Shown: piece by piece, positions 10,183 through 43,916 of the stretch
How the letters are laid out: every line of letters begins with the position of its first letter
Numbering within the stretch: position 1 is the first letter of the stretch
Source: Clostridium sp.
GTDB lineage: Bacteria > Bacillota > Clostridia > Clostridiales > Clostridiaceae
Length of the DNA stretch: 64,000 nucleotides
Assembly: GCF_021372645.1 (NCBI RefSeq)
Contig: NZ_JAJFUC010000047.1
Span: forward strand, 32,599 to 96,598
Reading direction: 5' to 3'
Notes under the pieces: generated by a model
Database searches by the model: none
What the model was told of the DNA's origin: nothing
What the model saw: the letters and a program-made list of their open reading frames with translations, nothing else
Made by a program: the position numbers and the translations under genes

Positions 10183-10225
10183 TTTTGTCAGATTTTTGAA
10201 TGACATTACGAAATATATTATATAA
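10183..10225 (+). promoter_or_regulatory. ECF-type promoter A (array unit 1)
   Basis: TGTCAG (10186-10191) lies 15 nt before TACGAA (10207-10212), inside a conserved TTTTGTCAGATTT and ATTACGAAATATATTATATAA context. The same arrangement occurs at 11649, 12386, 13714 and 42944. This is the layout expected of an autoregulated ECF sigma promoter. Here it faces a sigma remnant and then anti-sigma gene 1. Confidence 0.8.
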
Positions 10226-10331
10226 AGTTCAAAAAGATTTTTCTAAGAAGCGTAGTTTTGAAAGTTAATACTATTGATAAAAAAGCATCTAGACATGCAG
10301 AAGTTAAAAAGTATAAGGAGGAATTTTAGAA
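10226..10331 (+). pseudogene. Sigma-factor 3' remnant, unit 1
   Basis: About 100 bp related to the last ~35 codons of the intact sigma gene at 13782-14336, beginning at its SSKDISKN region. LKVNTIDKKAS is still readable, then the frame is lost. Promoter A is joined directly to it, so about 450-500 bp of the sigma gene has been deleted. The AAGGAGG that serves the following GTG start is retained, leaving anti-sigma gene 1 under the original promoter. Confidence 0.75.
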
Positions 10332-11453
10332 GTGGAAAACAAATTGTTTGAAGAATTAGATAATTTAAATATTAAAAACACAACTTTATTATTAGATGAA
10401 GATATTAATTTATCAATAGATTATCTGACTAGGAAACGTATTGAAAAATCCATAAAGAAAAAGATAGGTCATTATGAGAAAAGCAATATTCGTATAGAAA
10501 AAATAAATGATATTTTAGGAGAAATTTTTATGAAAAGAAAAATAGCTTTAGCATTATCAGTTGGTGTAGTTTTAAGTTTAGGTGGAGGAGTATATGCACA
10601 TGCCAAAACTACTCCAGTCGCATATGTTAGTGTGGATATTAATCCAAGTGTTGAATTAGGGGTAAATGCTTTTGATGAGGTAGTTTCCACTGAAGCCTAT
10701 AATGAAGATGGCAAAAAAGTATTGGAAGGAACTAATTTAGTGAACAGTGATGTTGATGATGCTGTTAGTACTGTAATTTCAAATGCAATTTCTGATGGAT
10801 ATATAACTCAAGATGCTACAACTACATCTGCAGTTGCAGTTGAAATTACTACATCTACAGATAAGGAAAATGTGGCAACTGAATTGAATGAATCTTTAAA
10901 AGAAGTTGCTGATAAGACATTAGATAACAATAATGTGGATGCAGAAGTTGAAACTGAAAAAGTAGCTCTTGCAAGAAGGGATGAAGCAAGAAAACTTGGA
11001 ATAACACCTGGGAAGTTAAATCTTATACAAAAGCTTCAAGAATTAGATCCAACAATAACTGTTGAAGATTACAAAGATAGTTCTGTAAAAGATATACAAA
11101 AGAAAGCTAAAGAATTGAGAAAAGATAATAAGAGTAATGCAGTTACTACAGAGGAGAATACAAACACTACAGATACAAGTACTGATGTAACTGCTGATGA
11201 AAATATTAATACTTCTTCTAATAATAATGGTAACAGTAAAAAAGAAGAACATAGCAATTCAAATAGTATAAAAGAAGAAAGTAATAGTTCAAATGATAAA
11301 GAAAAAGATACTATAACTATACCTTCAAAACAAAATAATAGTAATAATCTAAATTCACAAAATAATAATAGTAACAATTCAAATCCAGAAAAGAATAATA
11401 ATTCAAAATCACAAAATAATAGTAGCAATAAAGAAAAAAACAAAAATGATTAA
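10332..11453 (+). CDS. RsgI-like transmembrane anti-sigma factor 1
   Basis: A 373-residue single-pass membrane protein starting at GTG 10332 behind AAGGAGG. Parts in order: a cytosolic region of about 66 charged residues (putative sigma-binding part); one transmembrane segment (about 70-91); and an extracytoplasmic domain beginning AYVSVDINPSVELGV. That motif is the conserved core of RsgI proteins, with Asn104-Pro105 where RsgI self-cleaves. A helical EARKLGITPGKLNLIQKL segment and a roughly 115-residue disordered Asn/Ser/Lys/Glu tail follow. By analogy with B. subtilis RsgI the tail could sense the wall. It is one of three paralogues at this locus. Confidence 0.8.
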   Translation: MENKLFEELDNLNIKNTTLLLDEDINLSIDYLTRKRIEKSIKKKIGHYEKSNIRIEKINDILGEIFMKRKIALALSVGVVLSLGGGVYAHAKTTPVAYVSVDINPSVELGVNAFDEVVSTEAYNEDGKKVLEGTNLVNSDVDDAVSTVISNAISDGYITQDATTTSAVAVEITTSTDKENVATELNESLKEVADKTLDNNNVDAEVETEKVALARRDEARKLGITPGKLNLIQKLQELDPTITVEDYKDSSVKDIQKKAKELRKDNKSNAVTTEENTNTTDTSTDVTADENINTSSNNNGNSKKEEHSNSNSIKEESNSSNDKEKDTITIPSKQNNSNNLNSQNNNSNNSNPEKNNNSKSQNNSSNKEKNKND

Positions 11454-11468
11454 TTAAATTATAAAATC

Positions 11469-11552
11469 AGTGGTTTATATTTAATATAAACCACTAATTT
11501 TATGTATAAACATTTAGATTGAATTTTGTAACAATAATTCAATCTAAATGTT
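11469..11552 (+). terminator. Two successive hairpins after anti-sigma 1
   Basis: The first hairpin pairs AGTGGTTTATATT with AATATAAACCACT (11469-11495) and is followed by TAATTTTAT. The second has perfect 17-bp arms (11509-11525 and 11536-11552) around a 10-nt loop and no T run. The first is the likely terminator; the second could protect the 3' end or serve the opposite strand. Confidence 0.7.
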
Positions 11553-11644
11553 ATATGTGATATACGTGCATAGATGAGGGTGAAAAGAGAGATAAGTATT
11601 TATGAATAATTATACTAATAATAAATATTATATTTTTTATTAAC

Positions 11645-11687
11645 TTTTTGTCAGATTTACTAACTGTATTACGAAATATATTATATG
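11645..11687 (+). promoter_or_regulatory. ECF-type promoter B (truncated sigma)
   Basis: TGTCAG (11649-11654), 15 nt, TACGAA (11670-11675). It is almost identical over 45 bp to promoter D at 13714, including the following TATATTATAT tract. It directs the truncated sigma copy. Confidence 0.8.
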
Positions 11688-11716
11688 AATAAAATTTGAT
11701 AGAAAGAAGGTGCACT

Positions 11717-12217
11717 TTGATTTCTGATATTGAATTACTTAAGTTATTGAATAATAAGCCCGAAGTAGGTCTAAAAATGATGATGGATAACTACATGGCA
11801 CTTATTTATACAATAATATTTAATAAACTTTCTGGTATGTATTCAAAAGAAGATATAGAAGAATGTGTAAGTGATGTCTTTCTTGAAGTATTTCATTACA
11901 AAAATAGAATTAATACGCAAAAAAGTTTTATTAAAGTATTGTTGGAAATTATAGCAAAAAGAAAAGTTATAGATATGTATAGAAAAAATAAGAATAATAA
12001 TGAAATTTATATAGATGATGTATCAGTTCATTTAAATACTATATCAGATGATGTAGTACGCTCGATCTTATTAAAAGAGAGCAATTCACAATTAATAGGT
12101 GATATAAAGTCTTTGGGTGAACCTGATAGTGAAATAATTATAAGAAAGTACTATTTAAATCAAAGATTAAAAGATATTTCTAAGAATACTGGGTTGAGAG
12201 TTAGTATCTATGCATAA
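11717..12217 (+). pseudogene. ECF sigma factor lacking the region-4 recognition helix
   Basis: A 166-residue product that is closely related to the intact sigma encoded at 13782 up to SKNTGLRVS, then diverges to IYA and stops. The last 20-odd residues (NTIDKKVSRCMQKLKKV in the intact copy), which form the DNA-recognition part of sigma region 4.2, are gone. Region 2 (DIEECVSDVFLEVFHYKNRI and the following RNA-polymerase contact helices) is intact. It probably cannot recognise promoters but could still bind RNA polymerase or an anti-sigma. TTG 11717 follows an AAGAAGGTG ribosome site, as in the intact copy. Confidence 0.75.
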
Positions 12218-12261
12218 CTAATAAACCATTTTAAAACATGAATGGTTAAAATTGAGATTGA

Positions 12262-12302
12262 AAAGAGCTAGTTAGTATTAAAACTAACAAGCTCTTTTTT
12301 AT
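12262..12302 (+). terminator. Terminator after truncated sigma
   Basis: AAGAGCT plus GTTAG pair with CTAAC plus AGCTCTT around an AT-rich loop, followed by T6. The 3' half of an equivalent terminator is found at 10083-10104, next to the broken dioxygenase gene. Confidence 0.8.
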
Positions 12303-12382
12303 TATAATAAAACACATAAATTATAAATAAAAATTATTTTCATAATTAGTTGAATTAAATAAATAATGTAATTTGCTATTTG

Positions 12383-12425
12383 TTTTGTCAGATTTTAAGG
12401 TGACATTACGAAATGCATTATATAA
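12383..12425 (+). promoter_or_regulatory. ECF-type promoter C (array unit 2)
   Basis: TGTCAG (12386-12391), 15 nt, TACGAA (12407-12412). The flanks resemble promoter A more than B or D. It leads into a sigma remnant and anti-sigma gene 2. Confidence 0.8.
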
Positions 12426-12469
12426 ATCAAATTAAGGCATTTTTTTGGAAGTTTTAAAGAATATACCAT

Positions 12470-12586
12470 TCATATCAGAGTTTTAAGGATTTTTCTGAGA
12501 ATCTTGGTTTGAAAGTTAATACTATTGATAAAAAGGCATCTAGATGCATGCAGAAGCCCAAAAATTATTAGGAGGGATTTTTAGAA
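12470..12586 (+). pseudogene. Sigma-factor 3' remnant, unit 2
   Basis: Only the end of a sigma gene is left; NLGLKVNTIDKKASRCMQK is still readable before the frame ends at a TAG. The AGGAGGG serving the next GTG is preserved. As in unit 1, the body of the sigma gene has been deleted between the promoter and this remnant. Confidence 0.75.
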
Positions 12587-13606
12587 GTGGAAAACAAATT
12601 GTTGGAAAATTTAGATGGTTTAAATATTAAGAACACTACTTTATTATTAGATAAAGATATTAATTTATCAGTGGATTATTTTACTAGGAAACGTATTGAA
12701 AAGTCCATAAAGAAAAAGACAGGTTATTATGAAAAGAGAAATATTGTTATAGAAAAGATAAGTGATACTTTAGGAGGAATTTTCATAAAAAAAAAGATAG
12801 CGTTAGCATTAGCAGTTGGGGTAATGTTAATTTCAAGTGGAGGCGGATATGCATATGCTAAAGCTCCAGTGGCGTATGTTAGTATGGATATTAATCCAAG
12901 CGTTGAATTAGGTGTAAATGTTTTTGAAAAAGTAGTATCAGTTGAAGCGTATAATGAAGATGGTGAAAAAATATTAGAAGGTACTAATTTATTAAACTCT
13001 GAGATTGATTATGCAGTTAGTATTGTAATTTCAAATGCCATTTCTGAAGGATATATAAATGAGGATGGTTCATCTGCAATTGAAATTACTACATCTACAA
13101 ATAAAGAAAAGGTTGCAACCAAATTAGATGAATCTTTAAAAGAAGTTGCTGATGAAACATTAAATAACAGTAATTTTGATGCTGAAGTTAAAACCGAAAA
13201 AGTTGCTCTTGCAAGAAGAGATGAAGCAAGAAAACTTGGAATAACACCTGGTAAGTTAAATCTTATACAAAAGCTTCAAGAATTAGATCCAACTATAAAT
13301 ATAGATGATTATAAATCTAGTTCTGTAAAGGACATACAAAAGAAAACTAAAGAATTAAGAAAAGATTATAAGAGTAATGAAGTCACTGCAGATGATAGTA
13401 CAAACACTAATACAAGTGTTGATGTAATTACTTATGAGAATACTGATAATTCTTCTAATAATAATGCTAATAGTAAAAAAGAAGAAAATAATAGTGCAAA
13501 TAATAAAGAAAAAGATACTACAAATACATCCGAAAAACAAAATAATAGTAATAATTTAAATTCACAAAATAATAATAGCAATAAAGAGAAAAATAAGAAT
13601 AATTAA
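12587..13606 (+). CDS. RsgI-like transmembrane anti-sigma factor 2
   Basis: A 339-residue paralogue of the proteins at 10332 and 14337. It has a cytosolic N-terminus (residues 1-66), a transmembrane segment (about 69-91), and the AYVSMDINPSVELGV motif with Asn103-Pro104 as the expected self-cleavage bond. The conserved EARKLGITPGKLNLIQKL helix and a shorter Asn/Ser/Lys-rich disordered tail (about 85 residues) follow. In the other two copies an internal ATG behind a ribosome site occurs at codon 67; here the codon is ATA (12785), so only the full-length form can be made. GTG start behind AGGAGGG. Confidence 0.8.
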   Translation: MENKLLENLDGLNIKNTTLLLDKDINLSVDYFTRKRIEKSIKKKTGYYEKRNIVIEKISDTLGGIFIKKKIALALAVGVMLISSGGGYAYAKAPVAYVSMDINPSVELGVNVFEKVVSVEAYNEDGEKILEGTNLLNSEIDYAVSIVISNAISEGYINEDGSSAIEITTSTNKEKVATKLDESLKEVADETLNNSNFDAEVKTEKVALARRDEARKLGITPGKLNLIQKLQELDPTINIDDYKSSSVKDIQKKTKELRKDYKSNEVTADDSTNTNTSVDVITYENTDNSSNNNANSKKEENNSANNKEKDTTNTSEKQNNSNNLNSQNNNSNKEKNKNN

Positions 13607-13629
13607 TACAACAAAAGTCCTGCAAGCAC

Positions 13630-13672
13630 ATTTACGTAGAACTATTGACATAAGGATAGTTTCTACGTAAAT
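13630..13672 (+). terminator. Hairpin after anti-sigma 2
   Basis: The arm ATTTACGTAG plus AACTAT (13630-13645) pairs with ATAGTT plus TCTACGTAAAT (13656-13672), with one unpaired base. No long T run follows. Confidence 0.55.
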
Positions 13673-13710
13673 AATTAAGATAATAATAAATATTATGTTT
13701 TTTATTAACT

Positions 13711-13755
13711 TTTTGTCAGATTTACTAATTGTATTACGAAATATATTATATAAAT
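13711..13755 (+). promoter_or_regulatory. ECF-type promoter D (intact sigma)
   Basis: TGTCAG (13714-13719), 15 nt, TACGAA (13735-13740). It lies 41 bp before the TTG start of the only intact sigma gene, consistent with autoregulation. Confidence 0.82.
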
Positions 13756-13781
13756 CAAATTTGATAGAAAGAAGGTGCACT

Positions 13782-14336
13782 TTGATTTCTGATATTGAAT
13801 TACTTAAGTTATTGAATAATAAGCCCGAAGTAGGTCTAAAAATGATGATGGATAACTACATGGCACTTATTTATACAATAATATTTAATAAAATTTCCGG
13901 TATGTATTCAAAAGAAGATATAGAAGAATGTGTAAGTGATGTCTTTTTTGAAGTATTTCATTACAAAAATAGAATTGATCTGGAAAAGGGATCAATTAAA
14001 GCATTTTTAGCAATTATAGCAAAAAGAAAAGCCATAGATATGTATAGAAAAAATAAGAATAATAATCACATCCATATAGATGATGTATCACAAGATTTAT
14101 ATAGTATAGTAGATGATGTAGCTGATTCAATATTATTAAAAGAGAGTAATTCAGTGTTAATAGATGCTATAAAGTCTTTAGGGGAACCTGATAGTGAAAT
14201 AATTATAAGAAAGTATTATTTGTATCAAAGTTCAAAAGATATTTCTAAGAATATTGGTTTGAAGGTTAATACTATTGATAAAAAAGTATCCAGATGTATG
14301 CAAAAACTAAAAAAAGTGCTAGGAGGGATTATATAA
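13782..14336 (+). CDS. ECF-like sigma-70 family factor, intact
   Basis: A 184-residue RNA polymerase sigma factor with region 2 (about residues 20-90, KEDIEECVSDVFFEVFHYKN) and region 4 (about 125-180, SKDISKNIGLKVNTIDKKV). Start TTG 13782 is chosen because AAGAAGG lies 6 nt upstream. The ATG at 13695 lies upstream of the promoter elements and cannot be used by this promoter. Its stop codon directly abuts the GTG of anti-sigma gene 3 with no gap, so sigma and sensor are translationally coupled. It is the only complete sigma of the four copies here and presumably drives all five TGTCAG/TACGAA promoters. Confidence 0.88.
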   Translation: MISDIELLKLLNNKPEVGLKMMMDNYMALIYTIIFNKISGMYSKEDIEECVSDVFFEVFHYKNRIDLEKGSIKAFLAIIAKRKAIDMYRKNKNNNHIHIDDVSQDLYSIVDDVADSILLKESNSVLIDAIKSLGEPDSEIIIRKYYLYQSSKDISKNIGLKVNTIDKKVSRCMQKLKKVLGGII

Positions 14337-15530
14337 GTGGAAGATAAATTATTTGAAGTATTAGATAATTTGAATATTAGAGACACTAAATTACTATTAG
14401 ATAAAGATATTAACTTATCATTAGATTCTTCTACTAGAAAACGTATTGAAAGATCTATAAAGAAGAAGACAGGCTATTATAATGAAAATAATATAATTAT
14501 AAATAAAATAAATAATCTTTTAGGGGGAATTTTTATGAAAAAAAGAATAGCTTTAGCTCTATCGGTTGGTGCAATTTTAAGTTTAGGTGGAGGAACATAT
14601 GCATATGCTAAGACACCAGTCGCATACGTGAGTTTAGATATTAATCCAAGTGTTGAATTAGGTGTAAATGCTTTTGATAAAGTAGTATCAGTTGAAGCCT
14701 ATAATGATGATGGTGAAAAGGTATTAGAAGGTACTAATTTAATAAACTATGATATTGATAATGCTGTTAGTACTGTAATTTCAGATGCAATTTCTGATGG
14801 ATATATTCATGCGGATGGTTCATCTGCAATCGAAATTACTACGTCTACAGACAAGGAAAAAGTTGCAACTGAATTAGAAGAATCTTTAAAAAATGTAGCT
14901 GATGAAACATTAAATAACAATGATGTAGAGGCTGAAGTTGAAACTGAAAAAGTAGCTCTTGCAAGAAGAGATGAAGCAAGAAAACTTGGAATAACACCTG
15001 GTAAGTTAAATCTTATACAAAAGCTTCAAGCAATAGATCCAACAATAAATGTAGAAGATTATAAATCTAGTTCTGTAAAGGACATTCAAAAGAAAACTAA
15101 AGAATTAAGAAAAAATAGTAAGAGTGATGAGGTTACTATAGATAATAGCACAAATACTGAAATAAATACGGATACAAATGCGGATGTAGTTACTGGAGAA
15201 AGTACTCAAGAGGGAACTTTATCTAAAACATCAGTTGATTCAGAAGAAGCTACAGTTATAGAACGAGAAAGAAATAGTAATTGTTCTAATAATAAAGATA
15301 ATGCTAAAAAAGAAGAAGACAGTAATTTAAATAGTAAACAAGAAGAAAAGAGTAATGGCAATGAAGAAAAAAAGACTACAACTACAACAACTCAAAAACA
15401 AAATAATGGTAACAATGTAAATTCACAAGAAAATAATAATTCTTCAAATTCAGAAAAGAGTAATTCATCAAATTCAAAAAGCAATAATAATTCAAGCTCA
15501 CAAAATAAAGGCAAAAGCAAGAATAACTAA
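14337..15530 (+). CDS. RsgI-like transmembrane anti-sigma factor 3
   Basis: A 397-residue membrane anti-sigma partnered with the intact sigma immediately upstream. Residues 1-66 are cytosolic, about 69-91 span the membrane, and AYVSLDINPSVELGV holds Asn103-Pro104. The helical EARKLGITPGKLNLIQKL segment follows. The tail is the longest of the three (about 145 residues) and is almost wholly Asn, Ser, Lys, Glu and Thr. An internal ATG (14535, residue 67) follows AGGGGGAATTTTT, so a second product beginning at the transmembrane segment is possible. Classification as anti-sigma rests on the RsgI-type core and the sigma neighbour. Confidence 0.82.
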   Translation: MEDKLFEVLDNLNIRDTKLLLDKDINLSLDSSTRKRIERSIKKKTGYYNENNIIINKINNLLGGIFMKKRIALALSVGAILSLGGGTYAYAKTPVAYVSLDINPSVELGVNAFDKVVSVEAYNDDGEKVLEGTNLINYDIDNAVSTVISDAISDGYIHADGSSAIEITTSTDKEKVATELEESLKNVADETLNNNDVEAEVETEKVALARRDEARKLGITPGKLNLIQKLQAIDPTINVEDYKSSSVKDIQKKTKELRKNSKSDEVTIDNSTNTEINTDTNADVVTGESTQEGTLSKTSVDSEEATVIERERNSNCSNNKDNAKKEEDSNLNSKQEEKSNGNEEKKTTTTTTQKQNNGNNVNSQENNNSSNSEKSNSSNSKSNNNSSSQNKGKSKNN

Positions 15531-42627: not shown

Positions 42628-42885
42628 TTAAAACCTCTGTCTCCAAGCAATACAACTTCCTTGTATTATAGTTGTGGTCGGCAAACCTACTTCTATTTTA
42701 CAATGGAGGTTTTGTTTTTTCTACTCATAGCTAAAAGCTTTTTAGAACTACAAGTCTAACCTGTGGTATTCAATATACAATAATATATTGCGATTATACT
42801 TTGTATAAGTCCAATAAATCTGCTTATAACAGTAAGCAAAGTGACAGCAAATTCAGTATTAAATTGGATTTGCCGTCACTTTTCT
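42628..42885. terminator. Two hairpins in the gap before the L,D-transpeptidase
   Basis: AAAACCTC near 42630 can pair with GAGGTTTT near 42706 across about 68 nt. Further right, AAAGTGACAGCAAAT (42838-42852) pairs with ATTTGCCGTCACTTT (42868-42882) with one mismatch and is followed by T. The second is a good terminator; the first is only suggestive. Otherwise 42530-42940 shows no gene. Confidence 0.55.
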
Positions 42886-42940
42886 AATAATTTTAACTCT
42901 TTTTTTATAAATTAAAAAAATTATATTAATTTATTATTTA

Positions 42941-42978
42941 TTTTGTCAGATTTTTAAATATATTTACGAATTATATAA
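42941..42978 (+). promoter_or_regulatory. ECF-type promoter E (L,D-transpeptidase)
   Basis: TGTCAG (42944-42949), 15 nt, TACGAA (42965-42970) followed by TTATATAA. This is the same -35, spacer length and -10 as the four promoters of the sigma/anti-sigma array 30 kb away. It lies about 107 bp before the ATG. Confidence 0.78.
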
Positions 42979-43076: not shown

Positions 43077-43916
43077 ATGAAAAAAACAATTTTAAGTGTA
43101 GCTGTTGCAGAAATTATAATAAGTTGCAGTATGCAAACAAACGCTCATGCCGCAACTATAAATAATACAAATGATTCTAATAAGAATACATCTACAATAT
43201 CTACATTACAGAAAAGCGAAAAAGTAATTTCTATAGGTTCGAAAGGTGACGTTGTAAGGAGTATACAACGATTGTTGAATTCTCTGGAAGGTTGTAATAT
43301 TCAGGAGGACGGATTATATGGGGCAGAAACTTATAATGCCATAATTAAATATCAAGCTAAAAATGCCTTAAAACAAGATGGTATTGTAGGTAAACAGACA
43401 ATAGCGAAATTATTGAGTATTGATGTCAACTCTAAATTAAATACTACAAATTCAAACACTGAAAATGGAACGAAAGCAACCAAGGTACAGACCGTAAATG
43501 AAATGATAATATCCGAATTAAATTCAAAAGAAATAAATTCAGATACAGATTACTTCGTAGCTGTAAGTAAATCACAAAGACAAGTGTATATTTATCACAA
43601 GGAGTATGATTCTTGGGTAAATATAAAAGTATTCACTTGTAATATAGGATCACCTGATAGCCCAACTATAGAAGGGAATTTTTATAGTGGATTAAAAGGT
43701 AAAGAACTAAGGATAAATGAAACATGTGTAAAATATTTTACACAAATAAGCGGGAACTATCTATTTCATAGTGTCCCTTATAATGATATTGGAGAAGTTA
43801 TAGATGGTAGATTAGGTGAAGCAGTATCTCATGGATGTGTTAGACTTTCTTTAGAGGATTCTAAATACATCTATGATACTATTCCAGCAAAAACTGGAAT
43901 TAAAATCATTAAATAA
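43077..43916 (+). CDS. L,D-transpeptidase with peptidoglycan-binding domain
   Basis: A 279-residue exported enzyme: signal peptide (about 27 residues), PG_binding_1 domain (about 52-115, GSKGDVVRSIQRLLN), and a YkuD transpeptidase domain (about 155-278). HSVPYN and SHGCVRL hold the catalytic His and Cys. It makes 3-3 cross-links or attaches proteins to peptidoglycan outside the membrane. The ECF promoter E links it to the sigma factor encoded at 13782. Confidence 0.93.
   Translation: MKKTILSVAVAEIIISCSMQTNAHAATINNTNDSNKNTSTISTLQKSEKVISIGSKGDVVRSIQRLLNSLEGCNIQEDGLYGAETYNAIIKYQAKNALKQDGIVGKQTIAKLLSIDVNSKLNTTNSNTENGTKATKVQTVNEMIISELNSKEINSDTDYFVAVSKSQRQVYIYHKEYDSWVNIKVFTCNIGSPDSPTIEGNFYSGLKGKELRINETCVKYFTQISGNYLFHSVPYNDIGEVIDGRLGEAVSHGCVRLSLEDSKYIYDTIPAKTGIKIIK

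Follow-up and report, generated by a model that had tools for sequence, protein, structure and literature searches.

The closest described relatives of the locus analysed here are the SigI-RsgI pairs of Bacillus subtilis and Clostridium thermocellum, in which a membrane anti-sigma factor carries an RsgI_M (SEAL) sensor with a conserved N-P cleavage motif. The SEAL name and a three-step model of release by RsgI are given in excerpts of PMC12203970, and a link between SigI-RsgI of B. subtilis and wall defects is described in excerpts of PMC7478892. SigI is defined by a SigI-specific C-terminal domain in place of region 4, and its promoters have a -10 CGAA with conserved AT downstream (PMC4711584, in excerpt). 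Their -35 element is C-rich. C. thermocellum also contains sigma24C, which is an ECF sigma factor. Excerpts of PMC3990059 group the sigma24C-Rsi24C pair with RsgI-like anti-sigma pairs and term the sigma factor a sigma-24 type factor; Rsi24C has a GH5-like module associated with polysaccharide sensing. ECF41 sigma factors, which have a large C-terminal extension, serve few targets through TGTCACA-N16-CGTC (PMC3426412, in excerpt). In the ECF30-type sigmaV-RsiV pair, a membrane anti-sigma system of Firmicutes, DUF4179 holds a signal-peptidase site (PMC6066255, in excerpt). Among the matches listed in a search of titles and abstract starts of the open-licence PMC literature, we found no account of the sigma/anti-sigma/ldt system described below.

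The window, which is the whole stretch of 64,000 nucleotides of Clostridium DNA that was analysed, contains an array of sigma and anti-sigma genes at 10186-15530 and, farther downstream, a gene for a predicted L,D-transpeptidase (ldt). The motif TGTCAG-N15-TACGAA stands in front of both. We consider it likely that this motif is a promoter read by the ECF sigma factor encoded at 13782-14336, which would activate its own operon, extra anti-sigma copies and a few distal genes, with ldt as the one clear distal target here. The features of the window are as follows.

10186-10212, + strand: P1, putative ECF-type promoter of orphan anti-sigma A; exact motif, start codon 119 nt on
10214-10331, + strand: sigma gene 3'-end remnant, leader of anti-sigma A; local alignment to the intact sigma 3' end, score 109 (best of 50 shuffles 27)
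10332-11453, + strand: orphan anti-sigma A, 373 aa, RsgI_M; PF23750 119.6 bits (cut-off 25.3), DINPS, N104-P105
11649-11675, + strand: P2, putative ECF-type promoter of the truncated sigma gene; exact motif, start codon 41 nt on
11717-12217, + strand: truncated sigma gene, 166 aa, lacking the final helix of region 4; TIGR02937 40.2 bits, just under the cut-off of 42.9; same end as the copy in genome G004
12386-12412, + strand: P3, putative ECF-type promoter of orphan anti-sigma B; exact motif, start codon 174 nt on
12453-12586, + strand: sigma gene 3'-end remnant, leader of anti-sigma B; score 122 (best of 50 shuffles 30)
12587-13606, + strand: orphan anti-sigma B, 339 aa, RsgI_M; PF23750 119.9 bits, N103-P104
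13714-13740, + strand: P4, putative ECF-type promoter of the intact sigma/anti-sigma pair; exact motif, start codon 41 nt on
13782-14336, + strand: intact ECF sigma gene, 184 aa, TTG start; PF04542 32.9 bits (cut-off 24), PF08281 23.7 bits (under the cut-off of 25.7), TIGR02937 72 bits (cut-off 42.9)
14337-15530, + strand: paired anti-sigma C, 397 aa, RsgI_M; PF23750 121 bits, solved RsgI chains match from residue 104
42847-42873, + strand: terminator-like hairpin ending 70 nt upstream of the P5 motif; consensus scan, 1 found against 0.3 expected in the scanned stretch
42944-42970, + strand: P5, putative ECF-type promoter of ldt; exact motif, conserved before 5 of 5 ldt orthologs
43077-43916, + strand: ldt, PG_binding_1 and YkuD domains, 279 aa, predicted L,D-transpeptidase; PF03734 52.6 bits (cut-off 23.4), PF01471 49.9 bits (cut-off 23), SHGCVRLS

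The window sigma factor has the ECF architecture, with 184 aa (about 180-200 are expected) and regions 2 and 4 only. Where SigI has its specific domain, this protein has a region 4 match that runs to the protein end (PF08281, E 3.7e-5 though under the cut-off, ending at residue 176 of 184). The CGAA and a conserved AT downstream of it are shared with SigI promoters, whereas the -35 element is TGTCAGA instead of a C-rich sequence. As a whole, TGTCAGA-N16-CGAA resembles the ECF41 motif, but the sigma factor is without the large C-terminal extension of that group and its gene is followed by one for a membrane anti-sigma factor.

The three anti-sigma factors of the window each consist of an N-terminal part of about 65 residues, one hydrophobic segment, RsgI_M (E about 1e-34) and an Asn/Ser/Lys-rich tail. 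The tail stands in place of the GH5-like module of Rsi24C, a protein likened to these by description, not by sequence. In a Pfam search at E<=0.001 only RsgI_M was found, with neither the RsgI N-terminal sigma-I-binding domain nor, in contrast to RsiV, DUF4179. Anti-sigma C was also compared with solved structures. Five chains (8hep_B, 8u9o_B, 8her_B, 8heq_B and 8hdj_B, two of these matches being weak with E 0.035 and 0.092) begin to align at residue 104, which is the Pro in DIN103-P104S; a sixth, 8t9n_A, aligns from residue 96. Residue 104 corresponds to the first residue of the C-terminal piece in RsgI self-cleavage, which we take to occur at the N-P bond. With PF23750, the structural matches and N103-P104 as predicted cleavage site, the anti-sigma factors are, judged by their sequences, a combination of an ECF-type binding domain with an RsgI-type (SEAL) self-cleaving sensor. 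DINPS is kept in 29 of 29 anti-sigma factors from 16 Clostridium genomes, a set that was chosen by a looser form of the same motif and that equals in number the 29 found by similarity; one of the 29 (G004, 100-kb site) is without the N-terminal part. Just past the hydrophobic segment, AYAK or AHAK was seen by eye in most of the 29 (about residues 86-92 of the protein encoded at 14337-15530). This resembles a signal-peptidase site and could possibly serve for an alternative first cut.

The first-pass annotation had placed TGTCAG-N15-TACGAA at 10186, 11649, 12386, 13714 and 42944, and all five positions were confirmed as exact matches on the + strand. This count compares with 0.01 expected, and five or more were reached in 0 of 100 shuffles. 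The fixed spacer also held: when lengths of 11-20 nt were counted, the five matches all fell at 15 nt and none at the other nine lengths. Each site is followed in the same direction by a start codon 41-174 nt past the motif end. Four of the five are clear of any ORF of at least 60 aa; the only overlaps of the site at 13714 are with an antisense ORF of 72 aa and with the sigma ORF where its mechanical start is over-long. The sequence common to the sites extends beyond the short motif, to TTTGTCAGATTT-N10-TTACGAA.

The search was extended to the assembly from which the window comes (3.12 Mb, 105 contigs, 93.5% complete). Seven exact short-motif sites were found in it, with 0 for the reversed control. 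Six lie outside recognisable genes. The annotation had named equal frequency inside coding regions as the outcome that would refute its reading, and this was not observed. The remaining site, on contig C88, was set aside as a chance match, being inside an ORF that by eye resembles a response regulator and without the ATTT extension. With 0-1 mismatch, TTTGTCAGATTT-N10-TTACGAA gave six sites, five in the window and one on contig C57; four belong to the array, one to ldt and one is orphaned. A spacing control with the long motif one base shorter gave 3 matches, all with 3 mismatches, against 4 for its reversed control. The C57 site (L017:883-910) is most like the ldt promoter and has OrfB/TnpB-like and DDE transposase genes nearby, with no recognisable target. 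It is perhaps a second target promoter severed by insertion elements.

The distribution of the motif across the genus was compared with that of the sigma gene in a sample of 68 genomes. A close sigma homologue (E<1e-50) occurs in 16 of them, and the best match elsewhere is 2.9e-24. At up to one mismatch, the motif has 35 sites, which fall in exactly the same 16 genomes (reversed control 0). All 52 genomes without a close sigma homologue are also without the motif at this stringency, though some have distant ECF relatives. The Fisher p of 7e-16 for this co-occurrence overstates the evidence, since the sigma threshold was chosen once the gap had been seen and the 16 genomes are mutually related. 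The core pattern TGTCAGAT-N15-CGAA, which was picked from sites already seen, matched 47 times in the 16 genomes and once in the reversed control. In these genomes every sigma gene, whether intact (17) or truncated (2), has a site upstream. Among 46 unique core sites, which include one from genome G204 outside the genus, conservation continues past the bases fixed by the pattern: T stands at +8 in 43, and a TATATTATR stretch is conserved at +28 to +36, with a purine at +36 in 41. This A/T stretch lies at the expected transcript start. From these sequence features, the motif is very probably an ECF sigma promoter with TTGTCAGATTT-N10-TTACGAA-N-TATATTATR (TGTCAGA-N16-CGAA) as its best form.

The fifth site had been said to precede a gene for a wall cross-linking enzyme, and the prediction for this gene agrees. 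Ldt has a PG_binding_1 domain and a YkuD domain with the HGC catalytic motif (SHGCVRLS), as expected of a YkuD L,D-transpeptidase; a signal peptide was seen by eye, and the best solved relative is 4xxt_A. An ldt ortholog (E<=1e-40) is found in five of the 68 genomes, all among the 16 sigma carriers, and the motif lies 103-110 nt ahead of the start in all five. When the five upstream regions were aligned, the sequence was diverged farther up, conserved at TTGTCAGATTTTT...TTACGAA, partly variable after that and conserved again ahead of the start codon. In this alignment of orthologs, the motif before ldt is a sharp footprint. No sigma-A-like promoter was found on the + strand from 42500 to ldt in a consensus scan, in which promoter matches occur at chance level. 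On the - strand at 42920-42949, CTGACA (TGTCAG reversed) opens an 11-of-12 sigma-A-like match that faces away from ldt, also at chance level.

These observations bear on who reads the motif. The promoters could be real and yet serve, at ldt or at the array, mainly a different ECF sigma factor of the cell. ECF promoters can overlap, and several distant ECF relatives (28-36% identity) are encoded in Clostridium genomes. The motif is nevertheless absent, at up to one mismatch, from all 52 genomes without the close sigma, some of which have such distant relatives, and we regard this explanation as improbable. A DNA-binding regulator whose site is not a promoter would fit a bipartite motif of fixed spacing. 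Against it, the motif is non-palindromic, keeps a single orientation to the gene and has ECF-like geometry, the A/T stretch is conserved at the expected start, and the motif co-occurs with a sigma gene; this makes a regulator site very unlikely. Even less credence is given to the idea that a mobile element copied promoter DNA of the array to a place before ldt, where it has no function. P1 and P5 do have 28 of 40 upstream bases in common, and the C57 site that resembles the ldt promoter sits among transposase genes, but a functionless copy is hard to reconcile with a motif kept in five orthologous ldt upstream regions whose surroundings farther up have diverged.

The size of the regulon is a separate matter. 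The first-pass annotation had predicted a cell-wall regulon with a defined promoter code. The code is borne out, being of ECF type and common to the array and ldt, while the breadth is not: the window's own genome has six sites, and of 17 distal core sites across the 16 genomes, 6 have an envelope gene behind them. These genes are ldt in five species and a Wzz-like gene once; the other 11 distal sites precede small, mixed or unrecognisable targets. If the sigma factor governed a larger cell-wall regulon through further promoters that depart from the motif, this would agree with those six envelope genes and with weaker sites with GCGAA or ACATTT near envelope genes in genome G023. Relaxing the motif argues otherwise. 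The seventh-best long-motif site of the own genome has 3 mismatches, a level at which the reversed control also yields 2, and with 2 mismatches permitted the 16 genomes give 48 sites against 14 in the control. Weaker targets are not callable over this rise in background, and the broad regulon appears unlikely to us. Points that count against the preferred reading, a promoter of the window sigma factor with few distal genes, are the C57 site without a recognisable gene, the control level at 2 mismatches, the minority of envelope genes among the distal sites and, from the wider comparisons below, the lack of a clear motif in G192 and the 15 of 24 exact matches that are ahead of neither a sigma gene nor ldt. 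The genes under the motif look like a small set, less uniformly cell wall than had been proposed.

Most of the 47 core sites (30) precede the sigma/anti-sigma genes themselves: 18 stand before the 17 intact sigma genes, one of which has two sites, 2 before truncated sigma genes and 10 before orphan anti-sigma genes. Beyond these, five precede ldt, three a gene for a 67-aa protein and one a regulator that by eye is RpiR-like. One lies 310 nt from a Wzz gene, which is followed by an AAA_31 gene resembling CpsD. Four precede small genes of unassigned function and two a possible small RNA, both groups in the close relatives G031 and G048, and one (contig C57) precedes nothing recognisable. The motif is 94-95 nt upstream of the 67-aa gene in G004, G022 and G056 (L144, L145 and L143). 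This gene had no match in the window's own genome; remote homologues are present in G002, G013, G023 and G048, and G007 has a fragment interrupted by stops. In the two close relatives (L192 from 1195 and L193; contigs G031 C110 and G048 C78), the core motif is followed by about 150 nt without a convincing gene and then by a strong hairpin with a T-rich tail, possibly a sigma-dependent small RNA.

The computed results are the motif, its co-occurrence with the sigma gene, its conservation before ldt, the domain make-up, the conserved cleavage motif and the extra anti-sigma genes; we infer the binding of sigma to the motif, the signal, the proteolytic steps and the effect on the wall. At rest, the membrane anti-sigma factors would hold the sigma factor through their cytosolic domain of about 65 residues. 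A disturbance of wall or membrane would drive apart the two fragments left by self-cleavage of the SEAL (RsgI_M) sensor, after which a site-2 protease and a cytosolic protease would remove the anti-sigma factor, as published for RsgI. By analogy with SigI-RsgI of B. subtilis, a wall defect is a plausible signal. A member of Peptidase_M50, the site-2 protease family, is present in the own genome, as it is in 14 of 14 control genomes. The freed sigma factor would fire P1-P5 and yield more sigma; anti-sigma factor made from three genes would bring shut-off. Ldt, as a predicted secreted peptidoglycan L,D-transpeptidase, would add 3-3 cross-links.

The array itself is the more interesting part, with a probable sensor exchange, recurrent extra anti-sigma genes behind the sigma factor's promoter and a sigma gene retained without its recognition helix. 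All four sites in it had been described as lying before sigma/anti-sigma units. This is correct for 13714, which precedes an intact pair; those at 10186 and 12386 precede an anti-sigma gene only, and that at 11649 a truncated sigma gene. The sites are partly copies of one another. Those at 11649 and 13714 have 36 of 40 upstream and 38 of 40 downstream bases identical, and those at 10186 and 12386 have 33 of 40 upstream bases identical, so the five motif sites are not five independent events.

Sigma 3'-end remnants in the leaders of anti-sigmas A and B make it probable that each of these units once had a sigma gene and lost the greater part of it. In the 16 genomes, 12 of the 29 anti-sigma genes are orphans and 17 are paired; a tree of the 29 splits the two kinds with a single label change, at a support (72/87) that is not firm. 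For ten of the 12 orphans the leader was compared with the 3' end of the sigma gene, and eight beat the best of 50 shuffles, narrowly in G007 (34 against 27) and G003 (29 against 26). With 50 shuffles, the remnant was not detected in the leaders of G002 and the G004 100-kb copy. A core site lies upstream of 10 of the 12 orphans; for the other two the candidates are weaker, with 5 mismatches in G033 and 4 in G021.

The truncated sigma proteins of the window (166 aa, ...VSIYA) and G004 (164 aa, ...VSAYA) have the same end point, past which the intact proteins run on with NTIDKKVSRCMQKLKK, presumably the -35 recognition helix of region 4. Amino acid identity between the truncated and intact window proteins is 0.97 over the first ~60 codons and 0.74 over codons 90-165. 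Such near-identity of P2 and these first codons with P4 and the start of the intact gene points to gene conversion. The dN/dS (omega) value is 0.43 between the two truncated genes and 0.11 for the intact pair, which indicates weaker constraint on a reading frame that is uninterrupted in both species. The truncated gene may encode a decoy for anti-sigma factor or be in slow decay; if the decoy role is true, a sigma-like protein that is retained although it lacks the DNA-reading helix would be unusual among regulators. We tentatively raise, as a reading that is possible rather than likely, that the array is a feedback device of broken duplicates kept by selection. Orphan anti-sigma factors under the sigma factor's promoter would then act as a brake, and a sigma protein without the -35 recognition helix as a decoy that absorbs anti-sigma factor without firing promoters, giving opposing feedback arms. 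The same reading includes that the anti-sigma sensor of the clade was swapped for the self-cleaving SEAL while promoter code and sigma-binding domain were kept.

The sensor exchange was examined outside the genus. When 84,980 species genomes were scanned for exact matches to TTGTCAGATTT-N10-TTACGAA, 24 stretches were found. Six lie before a sigma gene of the present type and three before ldt, and at least five of these nine records are genomes already among the 16. The 15 that are ahead of neither comprise 10 inside mechanical ORFs of at least 120 aa, one before a DUF3993 gene (Sutcliffiella) and four without an ORF close by. Three motif-preceded sigma genes were found outside Clostridium: one in Acetivibrio alkalicellulosi, at 55% identity to the window protein, one in a MAG that bears the label Dehalococcoidia (47%) and one in an uncultured Anaerotignum (40%). 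A family search in 206 genomes (E<=1e-35) added two sigma factors outside the genus, in G204 (55%) and G192 (46%). The G204 motif has 2 mismatches; near the G192 sigma gene no motif was found with up to 5 mismatches, and the best candidate, with 6, keeps TGTCAGA and not CGAA.

The first ~50 anti-sigma residues are common to the window and these five outside relatives (0, 1, 0, 0 and 0 of 1000 shuffles were as good), with BLAST E values for the N-terminus of 2.6e-5 to 0.12, two of the five being weak. In the sensor part, nothing comparable to that of the window and no recognisable SEAL sensor was found in the five. DUF4179, the domain of RsiV, scored 30.5 bits in one of the five, over the cut-off of 30.1, fell short of it in another and was undetected in three. 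We read these comparisons as suggesting an old origin for the promoter code and the binding domain, with a later gain of the SEAL sensor by the Clostridium clade; the reverse course is a less favoured possibility. A sensor exchange in the clade of the array is probable.

The locus offers a specific promoter code that links one wall enzyme to a membrane-signalled ECF system of Clostridium, and solvent-producing species are among the probable carriers of the system. It also suggests how such switches may evolve: the sensor is exchanged with no change of promoter or sigma-binding domain, and after operon duplication the sigma gene is lost from copies whose promoter and anti-sigma gene persist, which adds negative feedback.

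Two neighbourhoods showed further features. In G023 (L140:2609-6224), two similar motif variants lie 3.6 kb apart with a DegS-like sensor kinase gene in between, one before a Phage_rep_org_N gene and the other 310 nt ahead of Wzz. At L085:3433-4666 (- strand), a second sigma-like gene and then a gene for an RsgI_M protein adjoin a present-type sigma gene with a DUF4179 anti-sigma gene; an ECF-type sigma factor with an RsgI_M anti-sigma factor is thus not confined to Clostridium.
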